A DNA stretch of 45,826 nucleotides from a virus: positions 1 through 45,826 of the IMG/VR virus record IMGVR_UViG_3300017917_001873. One strand, given 5' to 3'. The position numbers and the translations under genes are program-made. Positions 339 to 41,443 of the stretch are shown piece after piece (the stretch's first letter is position 1; every line of letters begins with the position of its first letter). The notes beneath the pieces are model-generated. The model ran no database searches, was not told where the DNA came from, and saw only the letters and a list, made by a program, of their open reading frames with translations.

Positions 339-346
339 TATAAATA
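339..346 (+). promoter_or_regulatory. T4-type late promoter octamer
   Basis: The exact octamer TATAAATA lies in the short gap after the first gene. It matches the T4 late promoter consensus, which functions without a -35 element. Transcription would start about five to seven bases downstream, near 351-353, and would read the split radical-SAM pair and perhaps thyX. The match is seen; the activity is inferred. An 8-base AT-rich match can occur by chance, but this one is intergenic, correctly oriented and just upstream of a gene. Confidence 0.55.
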
Positions 347-369
347 TGTATGTTCTCATGAGCATACAT

Positions 370-708
370 ATGAAAAAGTTAGTCAATGCTGCCTGCATGA
401 ATAAAAGCAATCCTACATTTTTAAAACCTGACGGTTCATACTTGCCCTGTTGCTGGGCGGCCACCAATCCAGATTTTATAAATTATCTAGGTGTGGAATT
501 ATACTCTCAATTAAATATCAATAATTATTCTATTGATGAGATCATGAATTCCCAGGCAATGAAACTGATAACAGAAAAAATTTTGTCAGATGACCCATTT
601 CAAATATGCATTAAAATATGCAAAGCGGACACAACAAAATTTGGCAAGGATATTATCAGCAGTTCTGTTATTGACAAAGACGGTGTTAATAGGGCGGTCA
701 ATCTTTGA
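370..708 (+). CDS. Detached auxiliary Fe-S (SPASM/twitch-like) half of a radical SAM pair
   Basis: About 112 residues from ATG 370. In-frame ATGs at 346 and 358 exist, but 346 overlaps the promoter, and 370 matches the length of the paralogue at 19425-20099. Cysteines sit at about 9, 27, 28, 80 and 84, in the pattern C...LPCCW...CxxxC. The same pattern forms the C-terminal third of the fused radical SAM protein at 22054-23226 (PCCW, then CxxxC) and recurs in the 19425-20099 product. There is no CxxxCxxC SAM-cluster motif, so alone it should only hold an auxiliary cluster. It is followed, with a 4-base overlap, by its radical-SAM partner. A partner subunit is the likely role. Remnant status is less likely, because the cysteines are conserved and the frame is open. 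Confidence 0.65.
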   Translation: MKKLVNAACMNKSNPTFLKPDGSYLPCCWAATNPDFINYLGVELYSQLNINNYSIDEIMNSQAMKLITEKILSDDPFQICIKICKADTTKFGKDIISSSVIDKDGVNRAVNL

Positions 709-1370
709 TAAATTTAAAGGATCCTGGACGAATAGAAATAGAGCTTACCTCTAAATGTACATTAGAATGTTCACTATGCCCCAGAACTTTGGATTCTAAT
801 GAAACAATAACCAGATGGAAGTTCGGCGAACTAAATTTTACTGCTGTAGAGCGGTTGATAACTCAAACTGTCAACACCAAAAGTTTAATTTTGGGTGGAG
901 GTCATGGAGATCCAATTTACTATTCAAGATTATTTGATGTGATTAAACTAGCGCACCAACATAACATAAACGTGCATCTAGAGACTGCTGCCAATTTAAG
1001 ACCCAAAGAGTGGTGGCAAGAACTTGCCAGTATAATAAAACGAAATGACACTATAAATTTTAGTGTAGATGGTTTAGAGCATAACAATCATATGTATAGA
1101 AAAAATGCCGTATGGTCCAGTATACAAACTGCCATGTCTGTCATTGGTACGGAGTCTAAGTGTAACACTATTTGGAAATGGATACTATTTAGATACAATG
1201 AAAACGATATTGTTGAAGGCTATAAATTATCAAAACAATTAGGGATAAGAGAATTTAGACTGGTGGAAAGTGGCAGGATTCCTATAGGTATGAAGCCAAC
1301 AAAAACATATCAACAGGCTATAGATGAAATAAAAAATTACAAGGCAAGTCTGAGCCATCAGACTAGTTGA
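705..1370 (+). CDS. Radical SAM core protein, 'GDP' subtype, lacking its own auxiliary domain
   Basis: 221 residues from TTG 705, which overlaps the upstream stop as TTGA. Starting here gives an N-terminus matching the paralogue at 20089-20727. The radical-SAM cluster motif CTLECSLC is at residues 18-25. The usual GGEP loop is replaced by GGGHGDP, the same GDP variant found at 20089 and 22054. A later segment (WKWILFRYNENDI, then YKLSKQLG) is nearly shared with 20089. Length is only that of the partial barrel core, and the auxiliary cysteines are encoded by the preceding gene. Expected chemistry is reductive SAM cleavage to a 5'-deoxyadenosyl radical; the substrate is unknown. A 31-base gap separates it from thyX. 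Confidence 0.8.
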   Translation: MINLKDPGRIEIELTSKCTLECSLCPRTLDSNETITRWKFGELNFTAVERLITQTVNTKSLILGGGHGDPIYYSRLFDVIKLAHQHNINVHLETAANLRPKEWWQELASIIKRNDTINFSVDGLEHNNHMYRKNAVWSSIQTAMSVIGTESKCNTIWKWILFRYNENDIVEGYKLSKQLGIREFRLVESGRIPIGMKPTKTYQQAIDEIKNYKASLSHQTS

Positions 1371-1401
1371 CTTTTTCAATAACAAACAGTAAAATATTAA
1401 T

Positions 1402-2286
1402 ATGACATTAAAAACTGAAATCAATTTCGAACAAGATAAGAACTATGTTCCTGTATTGGATCATGGTTTCGTTGGTCTAGTAGACCATATGGGCAGTGAC
1501 AGTGCTATTGTGCAGGCTGCTCGTGTCAGTTATGGTGCTGGCACTAAACAAGTTCAAGACGATAGAAACTTAATCCGTTATCTGATGCGTCATGAACACA
1601 CAACACCTTTTGAAATGTGTGAAGTAAAGTTCCACATTAAACTTCCTATCTTCGTTATGCGACAACTTGTACGTCATCGTACTGCTAGCATGAACGAATA
1701 TAGTGCTCGTTATAGTGTGCTTACAGATGAGTTTTACATTCCAGAATTGGAACAAATCCAAAAGCAAAGTACGACTAACAAACAAGGGAGAGAGGATGAT
1801 GAGTGGGGATTCGAAGAACGTAGAAGTGTGCAACACGCCTTCCAAAGGAGCTTTTTTAACGCTTATCGAGAATACTCCCAACTTCTGGGAAAAGATGGGT
1901 CTGGCCTTGCTCGCGAACTCGCCAGAAGCGTTTTACCTGTTGGAGGATACACTGAACTCTACTGGAAAGCAAACTTAAAGAACTTCCTACACATGGCTCG
2001 CCTGCGTATGGATTCACACGCACAGTGGGAAATTCAGGAATATGCTCGAGCTATGTATGATCTAGCCAAGCCCTTGTTCCCCGAAGCTTGCCAGGCTTTT
2101 GAAGACTATGCTGTTAATTCTGCTAAATTCAGTTCTGGGGAAATGATATTGTTGACAGAACTAGTCGATGAAGGCAAGTGGCAAAGACTACTACACAAAT
2201 ATGACGGCAATGAAAATGCCATGGCCAGCGACATGGGTTTGAGCAAAAGAGAACTAACAGAGTTTAAAACAAAATTAGGTCTGTAA
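1402..2286 (+). CDS. thyX: Flavin-dependent thymidylate synthase ThyX
   Basis: 294 residues. It carries the ThyX signature RHRTASMNEYSARY at about residues 91-104, the RHRxxSxxxxSxR pattern that binds dUMP and flavin, preceded by the usual MRQLVRH helix. ThyX makes dTMP from dUMP using methylenetetrahydrofolate and reduced FAD, supplying thymidine for DNA synthesis. It is frequent in marine T4-like phages, where it supports an AT-rich genome. Its C-terminus overlaps the end of the convergent gene at 2275 by about 12 bases, so no dedicated terminator fits between them. It has no evident link to the sugar and radical-SAM genes and probably belongs to the phage core. Confidence 0.96.
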   Translation: MTLKTEINFEQDKNYVPVLDHGFVGLVDHMGSDSAIVQAARVSYGAGTKQVQDDRNLIRYLMRHEHTTPFEMCEVKFHIKLPIFVMRQLVRHRTASMNEYSARYSVLTDEFYIPELEQIQKQSTTNKQGREDDEWGFEERRSVQHAFQRSFFNAYREYSQLLGKDGSGLARELARSVLPVGGYTELYWKANLKNFLHMARLRMDSHAQWEIQEYARAMYDLAKPLFPEACQAFEDYAVNSAKFSSGEMILLTELVDEGKWQRLLHKYDGNENAMASDMGLSKRELTEFKTKLGL

Positions 2287-2826
2287 TGGATCTATGCTGA
2301 TCTCATTCACATGTAAACGTGCAGGCTGATCAATAATCCATTTAATATAACCAGCGGCATCCTGAATAGACATACATGTTCTTTCAGGATGTTTCTCTTG
2401 CACGTTACTTAAACTGCCGAAACTTATATAAGTTACTCTGGGGCCGCCATTCCATACCCCCATCATACCTAGGCTGTTGCAGTAATCACGTAGAGCCTTT
2501 TTCTCTGCATTATACATCCACTCTGTAGCCTTCTTGGTTCTATCGGTTGTAGAACCTATGCAGATGATTAGTGGTGATTTGTTTGCTGTCTTTAATTTTT
2601 TATATACCACGTCTAACAACACGGTCTGATTAAATTTGTATAATGCGCTACACAAAATAATGATATCAAAATCTATTGCCGCTTCTGCAAAACGTGCTTG
2701 GTCAGCTGCCTTGGTTAAATCATAACCAACGCTTCTGCTTAGGAACGTTACATCGTGATCTACTAGTGAATACTTGAGGCCTTCGGCTAGACCATATTCA
2801 CTGTTGCCCGCTACTAGAATCTTCAT
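2275..2826 (-). CDS. Rossmann-fold (SDR-like) NAD(P)-binding protein
   Basis: Starting at ATG 2826 the product is about 183 residues and opens MKILVAGNSEYGLAEGL, a beta strand followed by a glycine-rich dinucleotide loop. A longer frame begins at 2871 but would add 15 unlikely residues inside the upstream gene. Later segments FDIIILCSAL and PLIICIGSTT resemble successive Rossmann strands, and ALRDYC follows with a lysine-containing helix, as in short-chain dehydrogenases. No clear YxxxK is visible, so an atypical reductase or epimerase is possible. It is the last gene of the left minus-strand block and overlaps the preceding radical-SAM gene by 29 bases. Confidence 0.65.
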   Translation of the reverse strand: MKILVAGNSEYGLAEGLKYSLVDHDVTFLSRSVGYDLTKAADQARFAEAAIDFDIIILCSALYKFNQTVLLDVVYKKLKTANKSPLIICIGSTTDRTKKATEWMYNAEKKALRDYCNSLGMMGVWNGGPRVTYISFGSLSNVQEKHPERTCMSIQDAAGYIKWIIDQPARLHVNEISIDPLQT

Positions 2827-3985
2827 ATGTCTTATCACCTGGGAATAAAGGTAGTTTAGTGCCTGGTGCACGTTTTGGTATCTTACTATCTGCGCTACTT
2901 ACGCAACTATGGCCGCTGCATGGCATGGGCTTATCGTATAGTTTAAATCCGGTTTCAATATGGCCTAGTGGCACTTCACTGCAACTATAGCTACGTTTGA
3001 TTGTACCGTCTGGTTCTCGAATGATAATGCCTCTGTAGCCACTACTACACTCCCAACCATGGAAATTGTTAAAGTTAAAGGCATTGAAACGTTCTGCTTG
3101 GTCCATGAACCAGGGGTTACCTTCCCGATCAATAAACTCAACCTGATAGTGTGCGTCCACTGCGGCCTGCTGTTTGTATCCGGGGTCTGCCTTGTCTATC
3201 ATGTAAGTAGGCTTTGGTCTTTTAACCAAGTCTGCCCTAGCGGCTTTGACTTCGGTAAATGCTCGCTGTGGCATGCCATTATGCAATTTGGCCAGCATGT
3301 CTTCCGTATAACCGTCTACCACACGGCTGGCTGTGGGATCGCTTTGTGGTTTTAGTGTAACATTAATGCCACGATCATGGAAGTAAAGAGCAAGGTCATA
3401 TATTTCATAGAACTGTTCAGGTACCATGACCATGTTAATGGTAATTTGAGTATCGTATTCTTGGCATAGCACCAGCTTGTCAGCGAATTCTGCTACCTTC
3501 TTCTTTGTATCAACATGTTCTCTATGACAGCTAGCAGTAATGCTGGCGCGATGGAAATACTTAACCGCAGGAACATACTTTTGTTCAAACCACTTGATGG
3601 GGCGACTCATGTTTGATGTCATGTGTACGCTGGTATAATTTGTGTTCTGAACATCATCATTTAGGTGATTTAAAATATCAATGTAAGCAGGATGGAATGT
3701 GGGTTCACCACCACTTAGACTAAAATGGTAGCTATTAAAACCACGTTCACGTGCCTGGCGCTTGATCTCGTCTACTGTTTTGAGCATTAAGGGTGTAGGA
3801 CGATGATCCTTGGTGTCACTGCGAGCATAGGGCCAGCAGTAGCTACAGCGATAGTTACAGTAGCGGCCTAGTAGCCAACTTACTGTAAACATGTCGCGGT
3901 ACAGCATGGTTCTTTGACCGACTCTTACTAGATCCTTGTAAGGAATTTTAGTAAAGTCATATTCGCTGGTTTTTAAATCACTCAT
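2798..3985 (-). CDS. Radical SAM protein with C-terminal auxiliary-cluster domain (type A)
   Basis: About 395 residues from ATG 3985, which overlaps the upstream stop by 8 bases (ATGAGTGA). The longer frame to 4045 would run through the upstream gene. SAM cluster CNYRCSYC is at 43-50; LSGGEP follows. C-terminal cysteines at about 313, 335, 356 and 361 mirror those of the type A proteins at 4205 and 10941. The final CxxxxCxC is reduced here to CxxxxCVSS, so one possible cluster ligand is missing. This resembles twitch/SPASM enzymes with one auxiliary Fe-S cluster. The substrate is unknown. The long Lys/Pro/Ser-rich tail after the last cysteine is not shared with the relatives. Confidence 0.85.
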   Translation of the reverse strand: MSDLKTSEYDFTKIPYKDLVRVGQRTMLYRDMFTVSWLLGRYCNYRCSYCWPYARSDTKDHRPTPLMLKTVDEIKRQARERGFNSYHFSLSGGEPTFHPAYIDILNHLNDDVQNTNYTSVHMTSNMSRPIKWFEQKYVPAVKYFHRASITASCHREHVDTKKKVAEFADKLVLCQEYDTQITINMVMVPEQFYEIYDLALYFHDRGINVTLKPQSDPTASRVVDGYTEDMLAKLHNGMPQRAFTEVKAARADLVKRPKPTYMIDKADPGYKQQAAVDAHYQVEFIDREGNPWFMDQAERFNAFNFNNFHGWECSSGYRGIIIREPDGTIKRSYSCSEVPLGHIETGFKLYDKPMPCSGHSCVSSADSKIPKRAPGTKLPLFPGDKTYEDSSSGQQ

Positions 3986-4208
3986 CTTGTTCGTATATAA
4001 ATTTAACATCCTTACCGGGACCAACTTCGCTAGGCATACCGCCATACTCTTTTACATACCATTCTATAGCAGCCACATACCAACCTTGGCTGTTATGTCT
4101 GCTGGCCTTGTTGAATTTATGTATGTTGTCATTGGTAGCTTCCATGGAGGCTATTACTCTGGCTGCTTCTAATTGTAGTTTTCTTAATGGTAGTTCAGAG
4201 ATATTCAT
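3978..4208 (-). CDS. Small hypothetical protein between two radical SAM genes
   Basis: 76 residues, joined to the upstream gene by ATGA and to the downstream gene by ATGAGTGA, so it is almost certainly co-translated with both. It contains an N-terminal amphipathic helix-like stretch rich in Leu, Arg and Ala, then a Trp/Tyr-rich middle (GWYVAAIEWYV), and ends acidic. There are no cysteines, signal peptide or membrane segment. I recognise no family. Given the context, it could be an accessory or peptide-recognition protein or a substrate for the adjacent radical SAM enzymes, but there is no direct sign of that: no leader/core division and no repeats. Confidence 0.7.
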   Translation of the reverse strand: MNISELPLRKLQLEAARVIASMEATNDNIHKFNKASRHNSQGWYVAAIEWYVKEYGGMPSEVGPGKDVKFIYEQDE

Positions 4209-5164
4209 GTATTATATTTACTTTTACTAGCCATCATGTCAGGCAGACACCAGCATGAATTGTAAGGACAAACCACACCATCATTTGGCAACCATTTTAT
4301 ATTGGATTCTTTCCAGTTACCAAAATCCTCATCGGTGCCTAGCATACAACCGCTGCCCCTGCGTATAGTGCCATTGGCGTCCAGAGTTATTTTGTCAACG
4401 CCAATAGCACAGTACCAATCCTTAAACCTGTTTTGTTCGTCTATTAAAATCTGACTGGTCACTGCCTGCAACTTTTTATCATTGTCATAGGTAAAACTTG
4501 GATTAAATATAAATTTCTTAGACTTAGACACACGCATATTAGCCTGCATGTAGTCTATTTGTGCCTGTGTGTATTGAACTCTACTATCAGCCACAGTCTG
4601 ATATCTATTATCGACAACTTTTATTTCCAAACTGGTGAATTCTTTTACGTGCTCTAGTATGTATTCCCTGGCATGAACAACCTTGTCCCAGGCATCAGGC
4701 CAGGCTAGAACTAGTATGGTCTTATAGTCATTGTCTAGTGCATTTATGCTCTCTACAAATTTCTCCACGCTCTTTACCTGCGTAGGATGATAGCTAAACA
4801 CTACTGATGTTATTTGCTTGCCTATTCTACGCCAATAATCTTCTGGCATTACACCATTGGTTATAAACTTTATATGACAGTCTGGGCTGTTTGTTTTTAT
4901 TATTTCCAGGGCCTCCGGGAGTTTTTTCCATATGGCTAGTTCGCCGCCCAGTAGAATATAATCCAAGCGTCTGTTCTTACCGTAGTGTGCCTGTAATTTC
5001 TTTGTGGTGTAGTCTATACTCTCAAGAGTTGGCCAACCGAAACTACCATCATGTGTTATAGTAGGACAATATTCACAGGCATAATTGCAGACATTGGTCA
5101 TAGTCCAATCTACAATGACCCAATTGGGATCTGCCTCTATGCGATTAAATGGTAAAGTTTTCAT
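4205..5164 (-). CDS. Radical SAM protein with C-terminal CxxxxCxC auxiliary region (type A, fused form)
   Basis: 319 residues. SAM cluster CNYACEYC is at 26-33. The GGEP loop is altered to LLGGELAIW. The C-terminal auxiliary cysteines are at about 252, 273, 299, 304 and 306, the last three as CPYNSCWC, on either side of a 'DANGTIRRGSGC' turn typical of SPASM/twitch regions. It is the intact counterpart of the split pair at 11276-11977 plus 10941-11279, whose cysteines line up one for one. Its start overlaps the end of the upstream gene by 20 bases. Expected cofactors are one radical-SAM 4Fe-4S and one auxiliary cluster. The substrate is unknown. Confidence 0.88.
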   Translation of the reverse strand: MKTLPFNRIEADPNWVIVDWTMTNVCNYACEYCPTITHDGSFGWPTLESIDYTTKKLQAHYGKNRRLDYILLGGELAIWKKLPEALEIIKTNSPDCHIKFITNGVMPEDYWRRIGKQITSVVFSYHPTQVKSVEKFVESINALDNDYKTILVLAWPDAWDKVVHAREYILEHVKEFTSLEIKVVDNRYQTVADSRVQYTQAQIDYMQANMRVSKSKKFIFNPSFTYDNDKKLQAVTSQILIDEQNRFKDWYCAIGVDKITLDANGTIRRGSGCMLGTDEDFGNWKESNIKWLPNDGVVCPYNSCWCLPDMMASKSKYNT

Positions 5165-6344
5165 ATAATTCTGGACATACTGCCTGTATATTTTGACAAC
5201 GTTTCTTATCTAGCACCTGAGTAAACTTTTGAAAATCATTCCATAAACTAGCAGGCTTTTTCATATTTAAGGTTCTACGCATGTTATCTATAAAAAACTT
5301 ATTGGACTCTCCGTATTTCTTTTCTACATAATCCAACTGTTCTGCCGCCGCTTTCTTTATGTGCTCGGGAGCCACTGCCACATGCAGGCATTCTGGATGG
5401 GTAAGCAATCTAAATTCTATCCATTCACTGGGTCTATTTATTATGGCTTCGGCCCAATCATAAAACTCTGCTACATTAAGCATATTATATATCTGATAAC
5501 TTGCATTGGGACTAAACAAGAAGTTTGTGTTTTCTTTTCTAAATGCACATAGCATGTCAATTGTAGAGGTTAATTGTTGCCAGGTGCACTGATCGCCACC
5601 GCGCATGTATTCAAACAATTTGCCCGTGCCATCAATGCTGATGTTTATGTTGACCTTTTTTGCTGACTTTAATCTTAGCAAATGCTGCTCTGTTAACAAA
5701 CTACCATTAGTTGTTATGCTGAGGTGTAAGTTTTTCAATATACCCGCTGTGTCCAATATATCGAATACATCTAGTAGATCATTGTTGATAAACGGTTCGC
5801 CGCCTGTAACTGTGATCATACGCAAATCTGTTAGTCTAGGCAACAAATTTGTCACAAAGGTTTTTAGGTCATTCCTATTCTTTGTATAATCTTCATAGTG
5901 ATGGCGCCCAAAACCATTCTGCCTTAGTAGCTCGTCGTCGTTTATCCAACTGTTGCTATAAAGGCTATTGCACATCCTACATTTAAAATTACAAAGGTTA
6001 CTGGTGTTTAAAAATAAATGATATATCTTATTACCAGTCTTTGTATTTGCAAAGTCTTTGGTGTCCCAGATGTCACCAGTCCACCAACGCTCATTGGTTT
6101 TCCAGTTGATTCTTTGGCTGACTAATCCTTGTTGCTCACGTTCGTGGCAGGTGGCGCATCCAGGAAGGTTCCAACGACCCTTCACCATATCGGTGCGTAA
6201 TTTAACAAACTGTTCATTGTCCCATACACCAGGATCTGCCATGGATCCCATGGGTAATGAACTCATCATACATCTACTAATATAACCTGCAGGATGAGTC
6301 GCTATTGATATCCATGGAATTATGCAGACATTATTTGAAGACAT
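5145..6344 (-). CDS. N-terminal-twitch radical SAM protein (type B, single-Cys 'RCxMS' subtype)
   Basis: About 399 residues from ATG 6344. The frame extends to 6362, but the extra six residues lie further inside the upstream gene. The N-terminal auxiliary region has C7 (VCIIPW), C25 (SRCMMS) and the pair C63/C66 (GCATC), followed by the SAM motif CNFKCRMC at 118-125 and VTGGEP. Where most relatives have CC, this one has a single Cys in RCMMS, exactly as in the first module of the 863-residue protein at 11970, which also shares the following MG...WDNE.F segment. This matches the family annotated as twitch domain-containing radical SAM proteins. It overlaps the type A gene downstream. Confidence 0.88.
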   Translation of the reverse strand: MSSNNVCIIPWISIATHPAGYISRCMMSSLPMGSMADPGVWDNEQFVKLRTDMVKGRWNLPGCATCHEREQQGLVSQRINWKTNERWWTGDIWDTKDFANTKTGNKIYHLFLNTSNLCNFKCRMCNSLYSNSWINDDELLRQNGFGRHHYEDYTKNRNDLKTFVTNLLPRLTDLRMITVTGGEPFINNDLLDVFDILDTAGILKNLHLSITTNGSLLTEQHLLRLKSAKKVNINISIDGTGKLFEYMRGGDQCTWQQLTSTIDMLCAFRKENTNFLFSPNASYQIYNMLNVAEFYDWAEAIINRPSEWIEFRLLTHPECLHVAVAPEHIKKAAAEQLDYVEKKYGESNKFFIDNMRRTLNMKKPASLWNDFQKFTQVLDKKRCQNIQAVCPELYENFTI

Positions 6345-7506
6345 TGCTAAATTCAGGAACAAGATCTAATAATTGTTCCTCTCTACTTTTGTCTAGCACC
6401 TGTGTATACTCTATAAATGCAGGCAATTTGTTACTCCAATCCTCTGCATTCATATAATCTATCACACCTTGTACTTTTTTAATATGCGTGTATGGTTTCA
6501 GTCTATCGCTGGCTAATTGTTTTAGCTCTGGAGGCAAAACTCTCACATTCAAACATTCAGGATGATTCAAGATATTTAGATATATATCAGTTATCCCTGA
6601 TGCTGCCAAATAGTCAAATAACTTATGTATCTCCAGGACGTTGTAGATCTGAACTGTGCAGTGTAATTGTAGATCTATCTTACCCTGTTGTTCTAGCTCT
6701 ATAAATGTCTTAAGATTCTTTTCAACTAGAGACCAACCTGTAGGATATCTGATATATCTATTTAGATCCCCATGGGCGTCCACGCTAGCATTGATCTTAA
6801 TCTTTTTAAAGTGTTTCCAGTATTCAACTAGCTTGTTTGGTAGATTAGTACAATTGGTATTGTACTTTAACGTGATCCCCCTAGCCAGGTCCAGCTCAAT
6901 TAGCTTATCAAATAGCTTATATTGGCTCAGAGCCAGTGTTGGTTCCCCACCTGTTAGATAGATCTCATCTATGGTATTTGCTAGTTTTAACAGGTTATTG
7001 GCCACTGCGTCATCATTAGGCCAATCCATTTTAGTCAGACGTTCTATTTCACTGTCAGTTAATTGTTCCTCTACTAGGTGCCATTCGTCTACCCATTGAT
7101 TACTAGCATATGGATTACACATACGGCATTTTAAGTTGCACAGATTACCCAGGCGTATATCTATATATTTGATCATCATGGGAGGAGTGGTCGACGCCTC
7201 GTAGTCAAACATATATTTTTCGTTCCAGGCTTGTCTTGCACTACGAACACCACTGTCCTCTTCCCTAAAGCAACGTTCGCACATTGCAGGACGTTGATCA
7301 GTTAATAGCTCCTGTCTAATTTGTTTCATAGTGTTACTATGCCAAAAGTCAGTCATGTCCTGATCTGTTATCTTATATGGTTTATTAGAATAATTTCTTA
7401 GTATGAAATTCTTACCTGGCGTGCTATTACAGCAGACACGCAGGTTTCCACTAGCATTGGTTGCTAGATGCATCCAGGGCAATATGCAAAACGTTTTACT
7501 TTGCAT
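6331..7506 (-). CDS. N-terminal-twitch radical SAM protein (type B, CC subtype)
   Basis: 391 residues. The N-terminal region FCILPWMHLATNASG carries C7, followed by CC at 25-26 and C76/C79 (CERC). The SAM motif CNLKCRMC is at 123-130 and LTGGEPTL follows. The post-GGEP sequence KYNTNCTNLP and the SVDAHGDLNRYIRY motif are shared by most type B members in this window and probably line the active site. The C-terminal 'LDKSREEQLLDLVPEF' ending is a family signature recurring as LD..R......PE. Start ATG 7506 overlaps the oxygenase gene upstream by 11 bases. The substrate is unknown. Confidence 0.9.
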   Translation of the reverse strand: MQSKTFCILPWMHLATNASGNLRVCCNSTPGKNFILRNYSNKPYKITDQDMTDFWHSNTMKQIRQELLTDQRPAMCERCFREEDSGVRSARQAWNEKYMFDYEASTTPPMMIKYIDIRLGNLCNLKCRMCNPYASNQWVDEWHLVEEQLTDSEIERLTKMDWPNDDAVANNLLKLANTIDEIYLTGGEPTLALSQYKLFDKLIELDLARGITLKYNTNCTNLPNKLVEYWKHFKKIKINASVDAHGDLNRYIRYPTGWSLVEKNLKTFIELEQQGKIDLQLHCTVQIYNVLEIHKLFDYLAASGITDIYLNILNHPECLNVRVLPPELKQLASDRLKPYTHIKKVQGVIDYMNAEDWSNKLPAFIEYTQVLDKSREEQLLDLVPEFSNVFK

Positions 7507-8236: not shown

Positions 8237-8251
8237 AAAAATTCCTTCAAA

Positions 8252-22051: not shown

Positions 22052-22053
22052 TG

Positions 22054-26511: not shown

Positions 26512-26530
26512 TATGCTAGTATTTAATGTT

Positions 26531-28799: not shown

Positions 28800-28818
28800 G
28801 GTAATGATCTCCTAGTCA

Positions 28819-28826: not shown

Positions 28827-28835
28827 ATCTACGTA

Positions 28836-28843: not shown

Positions 28844-28848
28844 TTCAC

Positions 28849-30285: not shown

Positions 30286-30286
30286 T

Positions 30287-33458: not shown

Positions 33459-34321
33459 TGATCTATAAGGCCGCGTGTTTTTCTATTGATAAACGACGCA
33501 ATTTCTTTGGCAATAACTTTGTAACCCTCTATAGTGGGATGTATACAGTTAGTTAGATATTTAGCAGGCCATTTTAGCTTTTGATAGACTTCGTGATAGC
33601 CGCCATATTCGGTTATACCGTCTAGTCTTACCAATAATTCTACAAAATTTTCATAATCTGAATAGTCATGTAGATAGTTTTCCCATTGAATATTATTGAT
33701 TAGATCTGAGCAATGCTGACGCATATAATGCTTTGCCCTACCATCAAATGCATTACACAATATAAATTGTAAGCCATGTGCCTTACAGAAAGTTTGTACT
33801 TCCATTATATTTGCATAAGTTTCCAAAATAGTCTGCTCTTCTGAATATACCATTTCTGCGTATGCATCCCAGAGTTTATTGTTTTGTCCGGGATGTGGCC
33901 ACATGGTGTTGAAATCGTAGTGTCCAGTAAGTTTATAGGCGTGTTTTACGCCGTATTTTTCTTCGATATCTTTAAAATCATCTACTCTCTGTCTAAAAAA
34001 ATCAAAACGTTCAAAACCACTCAGCTGCATGACCACATAGCCTTCTGTATTGGCCCAGTCTATATTGGTCAAGTACAGAGTTTTGGCTGCACCTCTGTTG
34101 CCAATGCCACGTTGTCCTAGGTTGATAGGTTCGTAGTCGGGGAAATAATTTTTACAGAGTACATTTACCCAACTGTGTTCTAACTCCATGGGTATTAGAT
34201 GCACGCTTTCATGCATGGGTTTGTTGACCCTACCACCATACTGTTCAAATATATCTTGAGTGTAGCCACCCTCGCCCTGGGTCCAGCTGCAACCAAGCCC
34301 AATTATTACTTTACGTTTCAT
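33455..34321 (-). CDS. SGNH/GDSL-like hydrolase or acyltransferase
   Basis: 288 residues. IIGLGCSWTQGEGGY is block I (GCS with Ser12), close to 28003. INLGQRGIGNRGAAK gives block II/III Gly and Asn, and VVMQLSGFERFDF a core strand. The C-terminal NCIHPTIEGYKVIA has His but Asn in the DxxH Asp position, so activity may depend on another acid or be altered. Adjacent to the radical SAM gene 31512 (ATGA overlap) and a glycosyltransferase-like gene. Cytoplasmic, with no signal peptide seen. Confidence 0.78.
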   Translation of the reverse strand: MKRKVIIGLGCSWTQGEGGYTQDIFEQYGGRVNKPMHESVHLIPMELEHSWVNVLCKNYFPDYEPINLGQRGIGNRGAAKTLYLTNIDWANTEGYVVMQLSGFERFDFFRQRVDDFKDIEEKYGVKHAYKLTGHYDFNTMWPHPGQNNKLWDAYAEMVYSEEQTILETYANIMEVQTFCKAHGLQFILCNAFDGRAKHYMRQHCSDLINNIQWENYLHDYSDYENFVELLVRLDGITEYGGYHEVYQKLKWPAKYLTNCIHPTIEGYKVIAKEIASFINRKTRGLIDQ

Positions 34322-35382
34322 GTATTACCTGCAAACATATGTTCTGTTTGTATTACAAATAAATCTTTTCTATTTGTGTCTTCAATGGTTACAGACTTAT
34401 CATGCATATATTTTTTCCACTCAACTATTTTCTTAGGCCAGAATCTATCGTCATAGATAATATCGTGCACTCTGTGCCTATTGTGTATGATTTTGTCTTT
34501 TAAAGGCACGTACAAGTCTGAGATGTCATCTAGACTCATTAGGGATAATTTTTTAACTTCTGCTGCGAACATTTCAACTCTTTTGTCGAGATCTTTTTCT
34601 AGATCGAAACTATAATCAAATACTTCTTCAAATATTTTAAATCCTAATTCATCTCTTAGGTAATGATTAAATCCAGGCGAACCAAATACTATAAATGGCT
34701 TATAAAACCACATGGCCATGGTTGTCTTTTCTGTGACAAAGATTTGATCAGGGCTAGATTCTGCGATTACGCTAAATGCCGCATCATTATAAATTTTTGG
34801 TAGCCTATAACAATTGTATCTTCCCAGATCATCGTAAAAGTTATCACCAGGTATAACTATTTTTTTAGGTATAAAGTGTTTGAATGTAAATTGATCAACG
34901 CTTGGTAAGCTAACAGCATTCCATGATATTAGATTCTCTTCCTGGAATAACCCCAGCCTGGCGAATTCATCAATAATTTTACACCTGAACAGATGTGCTC
35001 TATGATTTAGTGAGCAAAATTTATATGTGAAACGCTTGGGCGTAAATTCAGTTGGTGGGGGCAAAGCAGTAGGATCAAATCGTTGTGTGTCTATAAAATG
35101 ATGTTTTGCTTGGTGGAAGAAATTAACTACATAGGGCTCGTATACTACCCTGTCTCGTTGCACACATTTATCTACATCAGGAGTTGCTACTAGTATGTAT
35201 AGTGTCGCGGCGGGATTGCTGTCCAGATATTCACTAAAAACAGCATACTCTGGCATATGATGCACGCCGATTTCTTCAATACATAACCATTCTATTATTT
35301 CTGGTCGTTGAGTGTACAACCTATTTCTTAGATCATTAATATCAAATGTCTGCCAGGTAAAAAATTGAAAATATTTAGACAT
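34318..35382 (-). CDS. Divergent 'EKxxKP' family glycosyltransferase-like protein
   Basis: 354 residues. FCSLNHRAHLFRCKI (about 122-136), VIAESSPDQIFVTEKTT (205-221) and WFYKPFIVFGSPGFNHYLRDELGFKIF correspond to the NR..HR, E.., EK and PFI.FG segments of the 30287 and 35375 proteins, in the same order. The KP after EK is shifted (TEKTTMAMWFYKP), so it is the most divergent of the three. Coupled upstream by an 8-base overlap (ATGTCTAA) and downstream by ATGA. Probably a glycan-building enzyme; the donor is unknown. Confidence 0.55.
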   Translation of the reverse strand: MSKYFQFFTWQTFDINDLRNRLYTQRPEIIEWLCIEEIGVHHMPEYAVFSEYLDSNPAATLYILVATPDVDKCVQRDRVVYEPYVVNFFHQAKHHFIDTQRFDPTALPPPTEFTPKRFTYKFCSLNHRAHLFRCKIIDEFARLGLFQEENLISWNAVSLPSVDQFTFKHFIPKKIVIPGDNFYDDLGRYNCYRLPKIYNDAAFSVIAESSPDQIFVTEKTTMAMWFYKPFIVFGSPGFNHYLRDELGFKIFEEVFDYSFDLEKDLDKRVEMFAAEVKKLSLMSLDDISDLYVPLKDKIIHNRHRVHDIIYDDRFWPKKIVEWKKYMHDKSVTIEDTNRKDLFVIQTEHMFAGNT

Positions 35383-37660
35383 TTTTCTTTTCTACCTGTT
35401 CTTTAATCCATGCGTAGGTGATACGTAATCCATTTTCCAAATCCTCACCAGGGGCCCAGCCAATAACATCATTAATAAGTTTATTATGACTGTTCCTGCC
35501 CATAACACCCAACGGTCCGTCCACATTTTTAATGTTGATTGTTTTGCCTGAAATGCTGGCGATCAATTTAACAAGTTCATTAATGCTTATCATTCGCTCG
35601 CTGCCCAGATTCAATGGTCTATCATAGTCGCTGGCCATGATCCTTTCAATGCCCTGTAAACATTCTTCAATGAACAAAAAGCTTCTTGTTTGTACGCCAG
35701 GTCCCCAGACTTCTACGGTTCCACCATCTTCGCACATGGCAACTTTGCGACATAGGGCTGCTGGTGCTTTTTCTTTACCGTTGGCCCAGCTGCCCAGCGG
35801 TCCAAATATATTATGGAATCTGGCAATGCGTGCACGTATGCCATGATTGCGTGCGAATGCCATGTAGACACGCTCGCTGAATAATTTTTCCCAGCCGTAT
35901 TCACTGTCAGGATCAGCAGGATATGCACTGTCTTCGCTTAGTAAGGGATTGTCTGGTTCTGTTTGATTTCTACTAGGATACATGCAGGCACTGCTGCTAT
36001 AGAATACTCTTTTAACACCCTTCTTGACCATTTCATGCAAGACGTTTAGATTAATTATTGCACTGTTATGCATTATGTCTGCATCATTGTCGCCAGTAAA
36101 AATATAACCTGCCCCGCCCATGTCTGCTGCCAACTGATATATTTCATATACATCTTCCGTGATTAATTTTGCAACATTCTGTGGGTCACGCAGATCCATG
36201 ATATGAAATTCATGCGCTTCTGTTGTACTGTATTCTGGATATTTTAAGTCGGCACCGATAACATAGTAGCCATCTTTTTTTAATTTTTCTGCAAGATGTG
36301 TTCCTATGAAACCACCTGCACCACATACTATAACCTTTTTCATTTCCCTGGCTCCTGTAACTTCTGCCCCATATTTATCGCAGAATTTTTGCATTTCTAT
36401 ATGTTTACGATTTCTCAAATGCTGGAAATTATATTCAACAATTTCCTTGACATTTTCTTGTAATAAAATCTTGTCATCATCTGATAGATTGTCAATTTCA
36501 CTGATAAGGTCCATTACTTTTTGCATACGCAATTTATAATTGGGTTCATCATCATAACTCTCGTCCCAGATATCACCAAATGTTTTAAAGCCCATGTCCC
36601 TTAGATACTTCAATGAATGCTGAGGTCCGATCATTATAAATGGCTGCTTAAAGATTATGGGCTTCATTGTTTTTTCAGTTATGTGTATCATCTCCACTTC
36701 AAAGTTTGTTTCTGATACGATGTGAACAAGACTCTCATCATAAAATTTTACTGTCTCTGCATAGACATCATCTTCCATGGGGAACTTATCAAACTCACCG
36801 TTGTCAAGTATTAATGGCAAACGTTGTTCTAGTTCTTTTATTTGTTCGTTTGACAGATTAATGTTTTCCCTGTTGGCAATTTCTCTGGCAATTTCAAACC
36901 AGGACGCATGACTACCGGACTGTTTGGCTGCAAAACTGATATGTGTCTTGTCTAATAAATTCCTTTCAAACAACCGTAGTAAAAAATCAAATCTATGCGG
37001 TCTGTAACGCCTATTGAAATTTAAGAAAGTTTTTTTCCTGGGCCCAATAACATATTTTCTGTCACACAATCTTTGATCATTTGCAACTTGTATTTGATCC
37101 AGCAAATAAATTCCTGCATACTCAAAGGTCATCTTGGGTTCAAGGCCGCGATGCAGGCAATATCTTTCGTAAATTTCTTGACCGTTGAGACAGTTACTTA
37201 GATATATGACTCTAGTTAAATCTATACCTTTATCTGCAAAATAAGATTGTATTTTTGTAATTGTGTAATCATCAACAAAGCTCTCATGATGATTCGTTAT
37301 TAGTATCCAGCCTTGGCGTCTATTAACGGCATCAATTACACTTTCATTAATGGGGACATTCTCAAATACACCAATGCCAGATTGGAACGCTGACGATTCA
37401 AAATTTCTTTTGAATGACATGGTTAATTCATATAAGAAGGGACCAGTGGTCATGCCCAGATCATAGACTGGTATACTGCGTGTAGGTACGTAATTTCTAT
37501 AAAAAGTTGCCACGGGGTTGACATCGTCTGTTGTTATATGTCGTTGCCAGTCTATTCTAGGCATGGCCTTGGCTAGATCGTACACATCAGGTATTTTTGT
37601 GTTAATTATAGGACCACGCGGTCCGATCCATTCGTATAAAAATTGTAACTCTTTAGACAT
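35375..37660 (-). CDS. Fusion of an 'EKxxKP' glycosyltransferase-like domain and GDP-mannose 3,5-epimerase-like domain
   Basis: 761 residues. Residues 1 to about 430 are the glycosyltransferase-like part: FLNFNRRYRPHRFDFL near 212-227, SETNFE at 316-321, ITEKTMKPIIFKQPFIMIGP at 327-346. From Met440 a complete extended SDR epimerase follows: KKVIVCGAGGFIG, LAADMGGAGYI, SSSACMYP, EYGWEK (catalytic Tyr588/Lys592), RFHNIFGPLG, GKEKAPAALCRK, QTRSFLFIEEC, LNLGSERM and VDGPLGVMGRNS. These motifs fit GDP-mannose 3,5-epimerase, which converts GDP-D-mannose to GDP-L-galactose/L-gulose. The fusion suggests the transferase uses the epimerised sugar directly. An internal start at Met440 could also give free epimerase. 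Confidence 0.88.
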   Translation of the reverse strand: MSKELQFLYEWIGPRGPIINTKIPDVYDLAKAMPRIDWQRHITTDDVNPVATFYRNYVPTRSIPVYDLGMTTGPFLYELTMSFKRNFESSAFQSGIGVFENVPINESVIDAVNRRQGWILITNHHESFVDDYTITKIQSYFADKGIDLTRVIYLSNCLNGQEIYERYCLHRGLEPKMTFEYAGIYLLDQIQVANDQRLCDRKYVIGPRKKTFLNFNRRYRPHRFDFLLRLFERNLLDKTHISFAAKQSGSHASWFEIAREIANRENINLSNEQIKELEQRLPLILDNGEFDKFPMEDDVYAETVKFYDESLVHIVSETNFEVEMIHITEKTMKPIIFKQPFIMIGPQHSLKYLRDMGFKTFGDIWDESYDDEPNYKLRMQKVMDLISEIDNLSDDDKILLQENVKEIVEYNFQHLRNRKHIEMQKFCDKYGAEVTGAREMKKVIVCGAGGFIGTHLAEKLKKDGYYVIGADLKYPEYSTTEAHEFHIMDLRDPQNVAKLITEDVYEIYQLAADMGGAGYIFTGDNDADIMHNSAIINLNVLHEMVKKGVKRVFYSSSACMYPSRNQTEPDNPLLSEDSAYPADPDSEYGWEKLFSERVYMAFARNHGIRARIARFHNIFGPLGSWANGKEKAPAALCRKVAMCEDGGTVEVWGPGVQTRSFLFIEECLQGIERIMASDYDRPLNLGSERMISINELVKLIASISGKTINIKNVDGPLGVMGRNSHNKLINDVIGWAPGEDLENGLRITYAWIKEQVEKKNV

Positions 37661-38510
37661 GATAAGATTTAGTTACGTCCTTATAACCATTTTGTCTTTC
37701 GAAATCGTCGAAGGCAGCATGTGTGCCCATTGGTGTATATTTGCCACCAGGGCAAACAGAATTTAAATAGTTTTCCGCATGGTCTGCATATCTTGCCATT
37801 ACGTCCATGGATAATCCATCAATGGTTCTCATCGCATGATCTTTTATCCAAAAAAGGAATTGCATTGGACTTGGATGCGTATCTAGAAATTCTATATGTT
37901 TACCTTCATGGTAATATGAGCATGTATATTTCCATGCATTGTGGCCGTATGTTTCTTTTATATAATCATTGAAATTTTTATCTATTAGATGATCTTTATA
38001 CTGTTGCATGGTTCTTTTTAATAAATCATATTCAGGTGTTATCATTGTATTCTGATAATGCACATTAAATTCTTCATTATGAGAATCCAAATGCACCATT
38101 GAAAATTTATTCAAGAATGCATAGTACCATTTACAGCCTGTTTCCTCCAATAGTTTTGCTACAGCAACCATATAAGTTAATTGTTTTACAGTGGTTAGTT
38201 GATCAGAATTATAATAATCAAGACCGGCCATAACAAGTCTTTCTGCCGATGTATCTCCCAACATCGGCCAACCCCCATTGTTATCCAAGAAATCTATTCT
38301 AGCAGGATCAGTCCATTGAACTATAACAGTATCGTCTACTCCTATATTTTTATCCATGACCGCCTGCATGACTCTATAGAAGATAACAAAGTTACCGCAC
38401 CCTGGCTGACCATAATTTAATGTTATGTCAAAATTTTGCCCTATTATATTAGGCCAGGTGGGCCAGCGGTATTTTGTGAAACTATCACCAAACGCAATCA
38501 ATCTTCTCAT
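37653..38510 (-). CDS. SGNH/GDSL-like hydrolase or acyltransferase
   Basis: 285 residues. LIAFGDSFTKYRWPTW is block I with canonical GDSF. LNYGQPGCGNFVIFY has the block II/III Gly and Asn. VIVQWTDPARIDFL parallels IIIQLTGPTRI of the 18551 protein, and the two are probably closest to each other. The C-terminal EFLDTHPSPMQF has Asp two rather than three before His. Overlaps: 8 bases with the fusion gene downstream and ATGA with the radical SAM gene upstream. Confidence 0.8.
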   Translation of the reverse strand: MRRLIAFGDSFTKYRWPTWPNIIGQNFDITLNYGQPGCGNFVIFYRVMQAVMDKNIGVDDTVIVQWTDPARIDFLDNNGGWPMLGDTSAERLVMAGLDYYNSDQLTTVKQLTYMVAVAKLLEETGCKWYYAFLNKFSMVHLDSHNEEFNVHYQNTMITPEYDLLKRTMQQYKDHLIDKNFNDYIKETYGHNAWKYTCSYYHEGKHIEFLDTHPSPMQFLFWIKDHAMRTIDGLSMDVMARYADHAENYLNSVCPGGKYTPMGTHAAFDDFERQNGYKDVTKSYHV

Positions 38511-39952
38511 TTTGTATTTTTATGATGCTGTGGTGTGCCATCTCCTAATGGCTGGAATTCGCCATGATAGTCAACCTTGATCGTATCATACCACTGAATT
38601 AATTCGTAGGGGAATGTTGTCCAAAAATTAAACCCATTGCGTTTGTCATACTGTTCGTAGAATGCCCTAAAGTCATGTTGCAGATCTTCCTTGTTGCCTA
38701 CACGTACATGTGGTTTTTCTACCACTTCAATATAATCTATTAGACGTTCTATCTGACTGCCTTCTCCTATTTGAATAGCAGGGAAACCGTCTTTGACTAA
38801 TTTCTTCTGCTTGGTAACTTCATACCACGTTTTGAGTTTCTCACGCAGCAGGTTCTTTAAATGATCTGGTAGCGCAAGAGGACTCATAAAGCTGGGCCAG
38901 CGCAATATGTTTAGATCCAACATAGGCTTGTTGTTGCCAAAACGATCCTTTAAACTTATCATATCATCCATGAATTCAGTAATACTGAATAGGCATAGAC
39001 TATTGATAGTCATCATGATTGTTACTGCTCTGGGCTTGCCGTTTTCTAACATGTAGACCAGATTGTTTCTCCATGTATCATAATCTAGGCCAGCACGTAT
39101 GTAATTTGCGTGTTTGCCATAGGACTCGTTACTGGTATAGATATCGAACTCTTTTACTTTTAGAGTGTTGGTATAATGAACTAGTTTTTCCAACAACTCC
39201 TGTTTCATACCAAAGTTAGTATTAACCGCAATACGCAGGTTGGGATTTTCTTCCTGACTTAACATTTCCATAAAGCGCCAGAAATTATGACTCATGGTGG
39301 CTTCGCCGCCTGTGATGCGTATTTCCTGTAACTCTGTACGCAATTGTGGCCACCAGCGGAAGAAAGCTTCTACGTAGGGATTTCCCGTGTTAAATTTACC
39401 GTAGGGATCTGCCCAGCTGCCATCATGATGATATGCGCCACGCCCATCACTTTTCATATGCTGATAGGCGCCATGTTGTTTCATCTGTCTTGCCCACTCG
39501 GTGCTGTAGCCTGCATTGCAGTAGCTACAGCTAAACTGGCAGATGCGATCAAAACTGATCTCCATGGTTTTGGGTATAATATCTTCTGTATGCGCTCTAG
39601 TTGGTATCTTTTGTATGTCTTCTATCTTGTAGATCATGCTCTTGAATACACGATCACTGACATTCTCTCTGCCTATGTCTTCTACTTTCCAACAATAATC
39701 ACATTCATGCGGGCGGTGACCATCCAGCATGAGTTTACGCATTTTCTTTTTGTGGTTAGTATTGTGTATTAGGCTAGGATTCCAACGTAGTTCATCTTCG
39801 CCTGCTTCTATCATGTGTGGCAGTGGCAAGTGACAACTCATTGTTTCACCACTGCCCAGGTGTATGCTTGTATTATACCATTTTGCAGCACAAAAGCTGG
39901 GACTAATACTGTCTAAATTTTTCTTGCGCCAGTCGTATAGTTCGTTTCCCAT
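38507..39952 (-). CDS. N-terminal-twitch radical SAM protein (type B, 'SPSFCAAKW' subtype)
   Basis: 481 residues. The usual FCxxPW is SPSFCAAKW (C21), the CC is a single Cys in MSCHLP (C40), and CDYC follows at 84-87. SAM motif CQFSCSYC is at 138-145 and the GGEP loop reads RITGGEATMS. It resembles only its neighbour at 39962 in these points (both have SPSFCAAKW, HNTN.KK..RK and ILRWP/YLRWP.F.S). These two form a separate branch of type B located in the other operon. A 9-base gap separates them. Confidence 0.88.
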   Translation of the reverse strand: MGNELYDWRKKNLDSISPSFCAAKWYNTSIHLGSGETMSCHLPLPHMIEAGEDELRWNPSLIHNTNHKKKMRKLMLDGHRPHECDYCWKVEDIGRENVSDRVFKSMIYKIEDIQKIPTRAHTEDIIPKTMEISFDRICQFSCSYCNAGYSTEWARQMKQHGAYQHMKSDGRGAYHHDGSWADPYGKFNTGNPYVEAFFRWWPQLRTELQEIRITGGEATMSHNFWRFMEMLSQEENPNLRIAVNTNFGMKQELLEKLVHYTNTLKVKEFDIYTSNESYGKHANYIRAGLDYDTWRNNLVYMLENGKPRAVTIMMTINSLCLFSITEFMDDMISLKDRFGNNKPMLDLNILRWPSFMSPLALPDHLKNLLREKLKTWYEVTKQKKLVKDGFPAIQIGEGSQIERLIDYIEVVEKPHVRVGNKEDLQHDFRAFYEQYDKRNGFNFWTTFPYELIQWYDTIKVDYHGEFQPLGDGTPQHHKNTK

Positions 39953-39961
39953 TGATTTTCC

Positions 39962-41443
39962 TTATGCTGTAAATTTATCTGCAAGAGATTTTGCATTATA
40001 ATCATCATATACCTTTTTACACTCATAGTAAAAATCAGTATACTCGGGGAATGTTTCTAGGAAATTTGTGCCCCTACGGCGATCATGTTCATTGACAAAG
40101 GCATAAAAATCCCCCTTGGCCTTGGACAAGAATTCCCAGTCTGGTTTATGATGATTTCCTTCTATCACTCTATAAATGCGTTTCATTCTACTTATTTCAT
40201 AATCGAAATATCCCTTGCCGCAGAGTGGTAGCCAGTAGGTCTGCTGCATGTTTTTATACATGTAGCTAACGCTGTCTTCTACATACTTGATCATGTCATA
40301 GGGTATGATCCAAGCAGACAAGAACTGTGGCCAGCGCAGGTATGGAATATCTAGACTTACGGGATGTGGTCTAGTTGGTTGTACGGTGTATTGTTCTTTA
40401 AGTACCAAGACATCTTTCATAAAGTCAGTAAAACTACTAACGCTAAGAACATTATACGTACTCATTATTGTGAGTTTGCTGTCTCTGATTTCACTTAGAA
40501 CTCTATGACAATTCTTTAACCATTTGTCGTAATTTAGGCCGAAACGTATGTACTCTGCACGTTTGCCATGCGCTTCACAACTTGTGTAAAGTTTAAAACT
40601 CTTAATGGCACCTTTTTCCTGTATGATGGCCATGCGTTCGACGAATCTTTCAAATATCTCGTCTGGGATACACAGGTTGCTGTTGATGTCTAGCTCTAAC
40701 TCTGGCTGAGGATTTTCTATTAGATAATCCAATACCCTATATGTGTGTTTGCTCAACAGTGGTTCACCACCAGTAATTCTAAAGACTTTGAGTCCTTTAA
40801 TTAGGTCAGGCCACCACTTCCAGAAAGCATCAACGTAGGGATTTTCTTCACGTTCAGGTATGGGCATTTTGCCTATTTGTTTAAGATAATCAAGGTTATT
40901 ATAACCTATACTAAACAGTTCATAGTGACCATGAGCCTGTATTTCTTCCATCCATTTACTGGATACTTCTGGGCTGCAATAGCTGCATTTGAAATTACAA
41001 ACATTACTAAAACTTATTTCAAAATAAGTAGGATTAGCATCATCGTCCCACTTGGCATTTTTAATTTCTTCTATATAGGGTCTTGCCCAGTGCTCAGATG
41101 ACTTTGTTACTCGGTCGCTGAATACTTCATCGCCTGTTTTTACTGGGCTATCTTCTACACGCCAGCAATAATCACATTCTGCAGGTCGTTGACCTTCCAA
41201 CATCATTTTACGCTGTTGCTTTTTAAAATTTGTATTATGAATAGCAGTGGGATTAATTAAAACCTCATCAACAGGAATTTTATGAGTTGTTGGGTGGTGG
41301 CAACTATGTGTCTGTCCAATGGCCAGATGCACAGTAACCTGTTTCCATTTTGCAGCACAAAAGCTGGGACTTATTGTATCCAGTTCGGCTTTGACCGATG
41401 GCATTAATGCATTAACATCAAATTTTCTATCTTCTTTTTCCAT
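39962..41443 (-). CDS. N-terminal-twitch radical SAM protein (type B, 'SPSFCAAKW' subtype)
   Basis: 493 residues. SPSFCAAKW (C29), HSCHHP (C48) and CDYC at 90-93. The SAM motif CNFKCSYC is at 149-156, with RITGGEPLLS. A paralogue of 38507 by tandem duplication: the N-terminal 100 residues and the 'RRGTNFLETFPEY' C-terminus align with KRNGFNFWTTFPYE there. The His-rich stretch around C48 (SCHHPTTH) is notable and could supply non-Cys cluster ligands. A 1-base gap to the upstream glycosyltransferase. Confidence 0.88.
   Translation of the reverse strand: MEKEDRKFDVNALMPSVKAELDTISPSFCAAKWKQVTVHLAIGQTHSCHHPTTHKIPVDEVLINPTAIHNTNFKKQQRKMMLEGQRPAECDYCWRVEDSPVKTGDEVFSDRVTKSSEHWARPYIEEIKNAKWDDDANPTYFEISFSNVCNFKCSYCSPEVSSKWMEEIQAHGHYELFSIGYNNLDYLKQIGKMPIPEREENPYVDAFWKWWPDLIKGLKVFRITGGEPLLSKHTYRVLDYLIENPQPELELDINSNLCIPDEIFERFVERMAIIQEKGAIKSFKLYTSCEAHGKRAEYIRFGLNYDKWLKNCHRVLSEIRDSKLTIMSTYNVLSVSSFTDFMKDVLVLKEQYTVQPTRPHPVSLDIPYLRWPQFLSAWIIPYDMIKYVEDSVSYMYKNMQQTYWLPLCGKGYFDYEISRMKRIYRVIEGNHHKPDWEFLSKAKGDFYAFVNEHDRRRGTNFLETFPEYTDFYYECKKVYDDYNAKSLADKFTA

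Follow-up and report, generated by a model that had tools for sequence, protein, structure and literature searches.

Two described systems come closest to the locus reported here, an array of radical S-adenosylmethionine (radical-SAM) genes on a 45,826-base viral DNA fragment that constitutes the entire IMG/VR record IMGVR_UViG_3300017917_001873 (the window). The T4-like ocean genome TARA_ERS488813_N000010 (183 kb) carries 12 radical-SAM genes along with Fe–S assembly genes (Nishimura 2017, PMC5332604); this is fewer than in the window, and the passage of that paper on Fe–S supply mentions neither an array nor domain types or neighbours. The host-recognition cluster of pelagimyophages, which lies between VrlC and gp14 and has a mean size of 44.6 kb, resembles the window in being a hypervariable island in a T4-like structural region that holds tail-fibre and glycosyltransferase genes and has gained radical-SAM cassettes (2020, PMC7029224). 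The window differs from it in lying between ThyX and g44/tail-fibre genes (genes are numbered g01–g44, left to right), in coming from a jumbo phage related to PA5oct, and in holding many more radical-SAM genes. An earlier note on this DNA knew of no described phage system with so many; as written, this is not supported in view of these precedents, and arrays of at least ten are common in uncultured viruses. Our literature search found no paper joining the NCBI family name of N-terminal-twitch radical-SAM enzymes with phages. Relative to the literature found, the new elements are the scale and synteny of the array, the permutation of a BtrN-type twitch domain, the conservation of split enzymes, the placement of late-promoter motifs and a cellular counterpart.

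ORF calling and Pfam scans gave 44 main genes (Table 1). The 17 radical-SAM genes and 18 domains counted in the earlier note are all present: each open reading frame (ORF) contains a CxxxCxxC core, g15 contains two, and all 18 domains exceed the curated cut-off of Pfam PF04055 and retain the radical-SAM cysteines. The positions that had been assigned to the cores proved to mark the lower-numbered end of each ORF instead of the motif itself. A chance or motif artefact was ruled out by shuffling: these proteins contain 18 copies of CxxxCxxC, whereas 1000 shuffled versions of them averaged 0.09 and never exceeded 2. The radical-SAM genes occupy 21.9 kb, or 48% of the window.

Full-length matches above 170 bits to NF033640, the "N-terminal twitch" family, were obtained for eleven domains encoded by ten genes (g08, g09, g12, g15 with two, g16, g17, g18, g22, g38 and g39). 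The other seven genes (g03, g06, g07, g14, g21, g23 and g33), which were below the cut-off or unmatched, are the C-terminal-twitch, split or B12 types; the twitch domain is C-terminal in g06 and g07, and g23 ends in a SPASM-like domain. When the PDB was searched with a profile of eight N-terminal twitch domains, the sole match below E 0.1 was the cyclitol enzyme BtrN, 2-deoxy-scyllo-inosamine dehydrogenase (E 4e-6), with the ligand cysteines aligned. No variation occurs across 71 diverse homologues of the twitch enzymes in the radical CxxxCxxC, in three auxiliary cysteines or in GGE; the remaining auxiliary cysteine, in a CC pair, is kept in more than 90%. The domain is thus of the BtrN auxiliary type, with four cysteines that would ligate a [4Fe-4S] cluster. 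These enzymes share with BtrN the twitch, the four-cysteine pattern and the predicted complement of one auxiliary plus one radical-SAM cluster, but the twitch, C-terminal in BtrN, is N-terminal here, giving the order twitch then core, and there is an extra C-terminal helical region.

Three of the enzymes are divided over gene pairs, an auxiliary-cluster subunit and a core (g02/g03, g13/g14 and g20/g21). The g13 product is a twitch domain of the g06/g07 kind encoded separately, whereas g03 and g21 are core-only proteins that adjoin free-standing auxiliary-cluster proteins. The g14/g13 split recurs in the syntenic relative G001 (172 kb) and on a Bdellovibrionales chromosome, pairs of the g02/g03 type recur in several viruses and two Bdellovibrionia contigs, and the double fusion of g15 is retained in G001, G057, G069 and G070. 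Together with the permuted twitch, these conserved split enzymes offer testable enzymology in their own right. As for g33, its nearest relative is KedN5, of the C-methyltransferase class; it has the same B12-binding plus radical-SAM architecture, and its score against the KedN5-type family NF033712 (263 bits) is below the cut-off of 700. An extra B12-binding-like radical-SAM gene is found in G001 at 166578–168104, distant from the island.

The contig is a piece of a jumbo T4-like myovirus, in keeping with the "phage-like segment" of the earlier note. The T4-type markers come from G001, since the window itself lacks terminase, portal, sheath and baseplate genes. In G001, the terminase and sheath are 54% and 45% identical to those of the Pseudomonas jumbo phage PA5oct, and the baseplate wedge protein is 35% identical to that of a large Erwinia phage. 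In G001, the genes beyond g44 encode tail-fibre-like proteins (by eye) and the baseplate wedge protein. The window represents the hypervariable island of this virus, between ThyX and the tail-fibre and baseplate genes.

The island lies at 8–58 kb of G001, where counterparts of g01–g28 and g38–g44 keep the same order and largely other genes replace g29–g37. Orthologues are mostly 60–90% identical at the protein level (less for g02, g11, g19, g24, g38, g39, g41 and g42), compared with usually about 30% for paralogues within the island. The island or portions of it recur in G051–G055, G051 being nearly identical to G001. A shared core (drawn from g05, g06, g09, g17, g23, g27, g28, g40, g43 and g44) appears more distantly in G002, G007, G014 and G056:C3, not each of which holds each core gene, and in G070, a 236-kb record recruited through its portal gene, the twitch enzymes are spaced as the window order predicts. 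For all genes tested between the window and G001, the proportion of synonymous differences (pS) was 0.64–0.92, near saturation, and that of nonsynonymous differences (pN) 0.05–0.41, meaning that the island genes are under purifying selection throughout.

The phylogeny proposed in the earlier note was built for the twitch domains. In this tree of 77 domains, each window paralogue groups with the orthologues of other viruses and not with its neighbours; g38 and g39 form the closest pair, and support is high for most groups and low (0.17–0.21) for g18 and g38. Conserved synteny, the orthologue and paralogue identities and purifying selection together argue against a recent burst of duplication, decay or a chimera. 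Individually, recent tandem duplication was ruled out by the orthologue grouping (some supports being low), decay by pN/pS, and chimeric misassembly by synteny across several metagenomes; none of the outcomes that the earlier note had named as fatal, namely dispersal, decay or absence in relatives and chimerism, was encountered. The same data bear on the idea that a hypervariable site passively gathers cassettes that share no pathway. Such islands are a common feature of T4-like phages (PMC7029224) and g29–g36 do vary among relatives, but the order is conserved, most genes are under purifying selection, the paralogues are ancient and one-to-one, and similar blocks occur on a bacterial chromosome, so we regard mere hitch-hiking as very unlikely.

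Arrays of this size recur, as the earlier note had proposed to check: 20 of the 47 viral records reached by the twitch query hold at least ten radical-SAM domains, and up to 19. Some array phages (G070, G074), mostly those with the longest records, carry PF01521 genes for Fe–S carriers, but G001 has none. A search of 50,697 phage records in GenBank found twitch relatives almost exclusively in Vibrio phages of the KVP40 group, and no match to the g40 family. In Vibrio phage K566 (L218, 161.5–172.8 kb), four twitch-type radical-SAM genes alternate with GT8/GT4 genes and adjoin genes for PagP and LpxC(-like), both lipid-A enzymes. The K566 cluster differs from the window in having only four such genes, at 20–27% identity; the group provides a model in culture that bears the cluster in reduced form.

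The cellular counterpart is a chromosomal block of Bdellovibrionales MAG-22 (JAHDFM010000016.1; G057:C47, 44–82 kb, L210–L212), in which orthologues occur in the orders g11-g10-g15(double)-g14-g13 and g16-g09-g18-g12. The contig is cellular, having Obg, NadD and RimO genes (by eye) and no T4 markers. Like the window, the block contains a carbamoyltransferase and a B12 radical-SAM gene; it differs in its chromosomal setting, in identities of only about 24–57%, and in its partners, which are AsnB, HMGL-like, aconitase-like and PMT-like membrane proteins, with a QueC-like gene also present. A second candidate, G056:C3 (NZGL01000008.1, MED685 Gammaproteobacteria), was rejected as cellular evidence because it holds a T4-type portal and gp46 along with the island, implying a viral contig misbinned in a bacterial metagenome-assembled genome (MAG).

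The window contains only two perfect copies of TATAAATA, the motif of the T4 late promoter, where six would be expected, and each heads one of the two island operons (chance probability of both so falling about 1e-5). The copy upstream of g44 recurs, with at most one change, at 29–33 bp in G001/G051, G052, G054 and G055, and 8 of the 12 copies in G001 lie 18–29 bp upstream of a gene, including that for the tail sheath. These placements suggest that the island is expressed late, with the tail genes: transcription from the promoter upstream of g44 probably covers nearly all of the minus-strand genes, in which case the enzymes would be produced together with tail proteins. At the other operon head, the called start of g02 overlaps the motif, and the downstream ATG is likelier. 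Late timing weighs against DNA hypermodification, in which the carbamoyltransferase, glycosyltransferase-like and radical-SAM enzymes would decorate phage bases. Phage carbamoyltransferases and glucosyltransferases acting on DNA are known, and ThyX stands at the island edge; however, modification of DNA requires its enzymes early, the window revealed no hydroxymethylase, and the sugar-nucleotide genes differ from virus to virus, which makes this explanation extremely improbable.

Among the genes that the earlier note had listed around the radical-SAM enzymes, the carbamoyltransferase (g28) and the Asp-hydroxylase-like oxygenase (g10, Asp/Arg-hydroxylase family) were confirmed, and the GDP-mannose-type epimerase could be specified as a GDP-mannose 3,5-epimerase domain in g36. 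Of the five SGNH hydrolases, g29 and g34 have weak profile support, and the other three were recognised by a GDSx-like N-terminal motif. The glycosyltransferase-like genes mostly lack a significant profile match; g25, g26, g27 and g40 form a family that carries a DxD motif. Its AlphaFold model is confident, and glycosyltransferases make up nearly all of the best PDB matches to this model, although these matches are weak (E 2e-3, TM about 0.3). A GT10/fucosyltransferase identity for the g32 family was dropped, as the PDB gave no support.

Similar neighbours accompany twitch genes elsewhere. Among 140 neighbour proteins sampled at 79 viral twitch loci, PF05118 oxygenases (6) and carbamoyltransferases (4) lead, followed by mostly single nucleotide-sugar and glycosyltransferase families, alongside ordinary T4-type phage proteins. 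At bacterial twitch loci, carbamoyltransferase, PF05118 and GDSL each account for 3 of 130 near proteins and for none among the listed families of 111 far proteins, a suggestive pooled enrichment (p 0.004, post hoc). In 18 portal-recruited T4-like records, which are of unequal lengths and related to one another, all 9 that have twitch enzymes also contain the g40 family, as does 1 of the 9 that lack them (Fisher p 4e-4).

The neighbours and the BtrN-type twitch favour sugars as the substrate. On balance, we lean towards a production line, expressed late, in which radical chemistry serves to make or remodel a glycan of the surface or virion, alongside glycosyltransferase-like proteins, a carbamoyltransferase and an oxygenase of the LpxO/AspH family. 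In the series of steps that we infer, the glycosyltransferase-like enzymes (g25–g27, g40, g42–g43 and, variably, g32, g35 and g36) would assemble an oligosaccharide on a carrier, and the two-cluster radical-SAM enzymes would each make one regio- and stereospecific change at an unreactive C–H of the chain, candidates being BtrN-like oxidation, epimerisation or deoxygenation. The B12 radical-SAM enzyme would add a methyl group, the carbamoyltransferase would cap a hydroxyl, the oxygenase would hydroxylate a chain, and the SGNH proteins would trim or move acyl groups. The product would most likely be a modified host-envelope glycolipid or a tail-fibre glycan, which might block re-adsorption or superinfection, or protect or tune receptor-binding parts. 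What the data establish are the genes with their cluster motifs, their conservation and synteny, and the position and promoter motif of the island; actual late expression, a glycan as substrate, the sequence of steps and the benefit are inferred. PF05118 includes LpxO (PMC5767591) and, given also PagP and LpxC in K566, lipid A or lipopolysaccharide is a fair first guess for the carrier.

More tentatively, it is possible that all seventeen radical-SAM enzymes, most of them two-cluster and three heterodimeric, are expressed late and successively edit one virion or host-envelope glycan. If so, few known radical-SAM pathways would be as large; bacteria would share this one, and its reshuffling among viruses would diversify what is made. 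Because radical-SAM catalysis depends on iron, reductant and low oxygen, and the enzymes take up half of a 45-kb island, the virus must gain much from them. If a glycan is indeed edited, the island represents a store of new C–H sugar chemistry and a new means for phages to alter surfaces or receptor-binding parts.

Several observations weigh against the glycan reading. The glycosyltransferase assignments are weak, as noted for g40, and the g32 family is unmatched in the PDB; GT2 is not clearly richer near bacterial twitch enzymes (5 of 130 near versus 3 of 111 far proteins). Late expression is deduced from the promoter motif, and the copy upstream of g44 is not clearly recognisable in the most distant relatives. 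On one MAG contig (L143, 7418–17200), seven twitch genes stand consecutively between nuo-like and atp-like genes with no glycosyltransferase. Finally, PDB matches of the confident g09 model are generic for the class and name no substrate; in Foldseek, the maturases CteB and SkfB of ribosomally synthesised and post-translationally modified peptides (RiPPs) and a sulfatase maturase rank first, with BlsE, DesII and viperin close behind, leaving the choice between sugar or nucleotide and peptide substrates undecided by this modelled fold. Of the modification line for a glycan or protein hypothesised in the earlier note, the existence and maintenance of a multi-enzyme island among sugar-handling genes are supported; fold comparison does not settle glycan versus protein.

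The g09 ranking would fit radical-SAM enzymes acting on a virion protein, such as the tail fibre, or on a small ribosomal peptide, with sugars and carbamoyl placed on the same polypeptide. Most characterised SPASM/twitch enzymes modify peptides, and tail-fibre genes adjoin the island. There is also a conserved candidate peptide: ORFs of 30–60 aa ending in LRKRDPFIYK (or close) precede the phage carbamoyltransferase within 1 kb at 22 loci (L185, L037, L040, L046, L078 and others), overlapping its start by 4 bp at many loci in relatives. In place and tail, and in these only, the ORF resembles a bacterial DUF5989 peptide (ending APFIYT..) beside the carbamoyltransferase in L106, rather than a precursor; DUF5989 itself (PF19451, cut-off 27 bits) was unmatched in the window and at that ORF in the phage records. 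We do not favour a RiPP precursor for this ORF. The tight packing of the window, with gaps below 15 bp at 38 of 43 gene junctions, leaves little room for peptide precursors, and no RiPP partner family occurs among the 25 neighbour families listed for the 79 viral loci, RRE not having been searched for directly. Overall, a protein or peptide line appears unlikely.

The infected cell might instead make a small molecule or lipid, in the form of a secreted metabolite or a lipid with an altered headgroup. The HMGL-like, aconitase-like, QueC-like and AsnB genes of the Bdellovibrionales block and the seven-gene array of L143 point in this direction, but these acid-chain genes were not found in the island of the window and the phage neighbours are sugar enzymes; we consider such a product decidedly unlikely.

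Table 1. Features of the window, with the evidence for each assignment
Feature	Position	Strand	Basis
TATAAATA, T4-late-promoter-like, 23 bp upstream of probable g02 ATG (370)	339–346	+	motif match; not conserved in G001
g02, free-standing SPASM/auxiliary-cluster subunit, pairs with g03	346–708	+	PF13186 E 1.5e-5; pair conserved
g03, core-only radical SAM, g02 partner	705–1370	+	PF04055 over cut-off
g04, ThyX thymidylate synthase, island edge	1402–2286	+	PF02511 E 1e-57
g05, core island gene, Rossmann/SDR-like by eye	2275–2871	-	no Pfam match; 47–72% identity in relatives
g06, radical SAM, C-terminal twitch; among the most conserved island genes	2798–4045	-	profile; 69–88% identity in relatives
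g07, radical SAM, C-terminal twitch	4205–5164	-	profile
g08, N-terminal-twitch radical SAM	5145–6362	-	NF033640, 247 bits
g09, N-terminal-twitch radical SAM, core gene	6331–7506	-	NF033640; AlphaFold pLDDT 95.6
g10, Asp/Arg beta-hydroxylase (LpxO/AspH) family oxygenase	7496–8236	-	PF05118 E 7e-11
g11, unknown, SAM-binding-like C-terminus by eye	8252–9646	-	g10 neighbour on bacterial chromosome also
g12, N-terminal-twitch radical SAM	9647–10954	-	NF033640, 307 bits
g13, auxiliary-cluster (twitch) subunit for g14, 4-bp overlap	10941–11279	-	46–88% identity in several relatives
g14, radical-SAM core, g13 partner	11276–11977	-	PF04055 E 4e-14
g15, two N-terminal-twitch radical-SAM enzymes fused in a single chain	11970–14561	-	PF04055, NF033640
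g16, N-terminal-twitch radical SAM	14554–15840	-	PF04055, NF033640
g17, N-terminal-twitch radical SAM, widest-spread twitch gene	15833–17299	-	430 bits
g18, N-terminal-twitch radical SAM	17292–18554	-	PF04055, NF033640
g19, SGNH-like, motif only	18551–19459	-	GDSFTEG by eye; no Pfam support
g20, auxiliary-cluster subunit for g21	19425–20099	-	profile, relatives
g21, radical-SAM core, g20 partner	20089–20727	-	PF04055 E 8e-8
g22, N-terminal-twitch radical SAM	20720–22051	-	PF04055, NF033640
g23, radical SAM, C-terminal SPASM-like domain, core gene	22054–23226	-	profile, relatives
g24, unknown, evolves fast	23226–24104	-	comparison with relatives
g25, g26, g27, glycosyltransferase-like (GT-A-like, DxD), paralogous family including g40	24094–26511	-	motif and model
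g28, O-carbamoyltransferase, TobZ/NovN/GdmN family	26531–28003	-	E 1e-52
g29, SGNH hydrolase-like; absent at this site in close relatives	28003–28662	-	PF00657 E 4e-4, below cut-off
46-aa ORF, C-terminal RKRDPFIYK	28659–28799	-	ORF calling, relatives
g30, SGNH-like (motif only), opposite strand, accessory	28849–29526	+	by eye
g31, cytidylyltransferase plus mannose-6-P-isomerase-type cupin, accessory	29527–30285	-	Pfam
g32, glycosyltransferase-like family common to g35 and g36N; function by eye only	30287–31537	-	PDB unmatched
g33, B12-dependent radical SAM, KedN5-like	31512–33458	-	PF02310 + PF04055; NF033712 263 bits
g34, SGNH hydrolase-like	33455–34321	-	PF00657 E 0.005
g35, glycosyltransferase-like, function by eye only	34318–35382	-	family with g32
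g36, glycosyltransferase-like domain fused to GDP-mannose 3,5-epimerase	35375–37660	-	E 4e-97 to PDB 2c59
g37, SGNH-like, motif only	37653–38510	-	by eye
g38, N-terminal-twitch radical SAM	38507–39952	-	PF04055, NF033640
g39, N-terminal-twitch radical SAM, g38 sister	39962–41443	-	PF04055, NF033640, tree
g40, glycosyltransferase-like, core gene	41445–42416	-	60–90% identity in most relatives
g41–g43, variable protein and two GT8-like proteins (by eye), right island edge	42391–45225	-	by eye, relatives
g44, small conserved protein, first in island operon, adjoins tail fibres	45218–45571	-	relatives
TATAAATA, T4-late-promoter-like, 29 bp upstream of g44	45601–45608	-	motif; kept in close relatives

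Scans of the window for tRNAs and Rfam families were both empty. Its right end enters repeats of a tail-fibre-like frame, where two identical 81-base repeats, spaced 96 bases, lie at 45650–45826; the assembly may stop at the contig end because of them.

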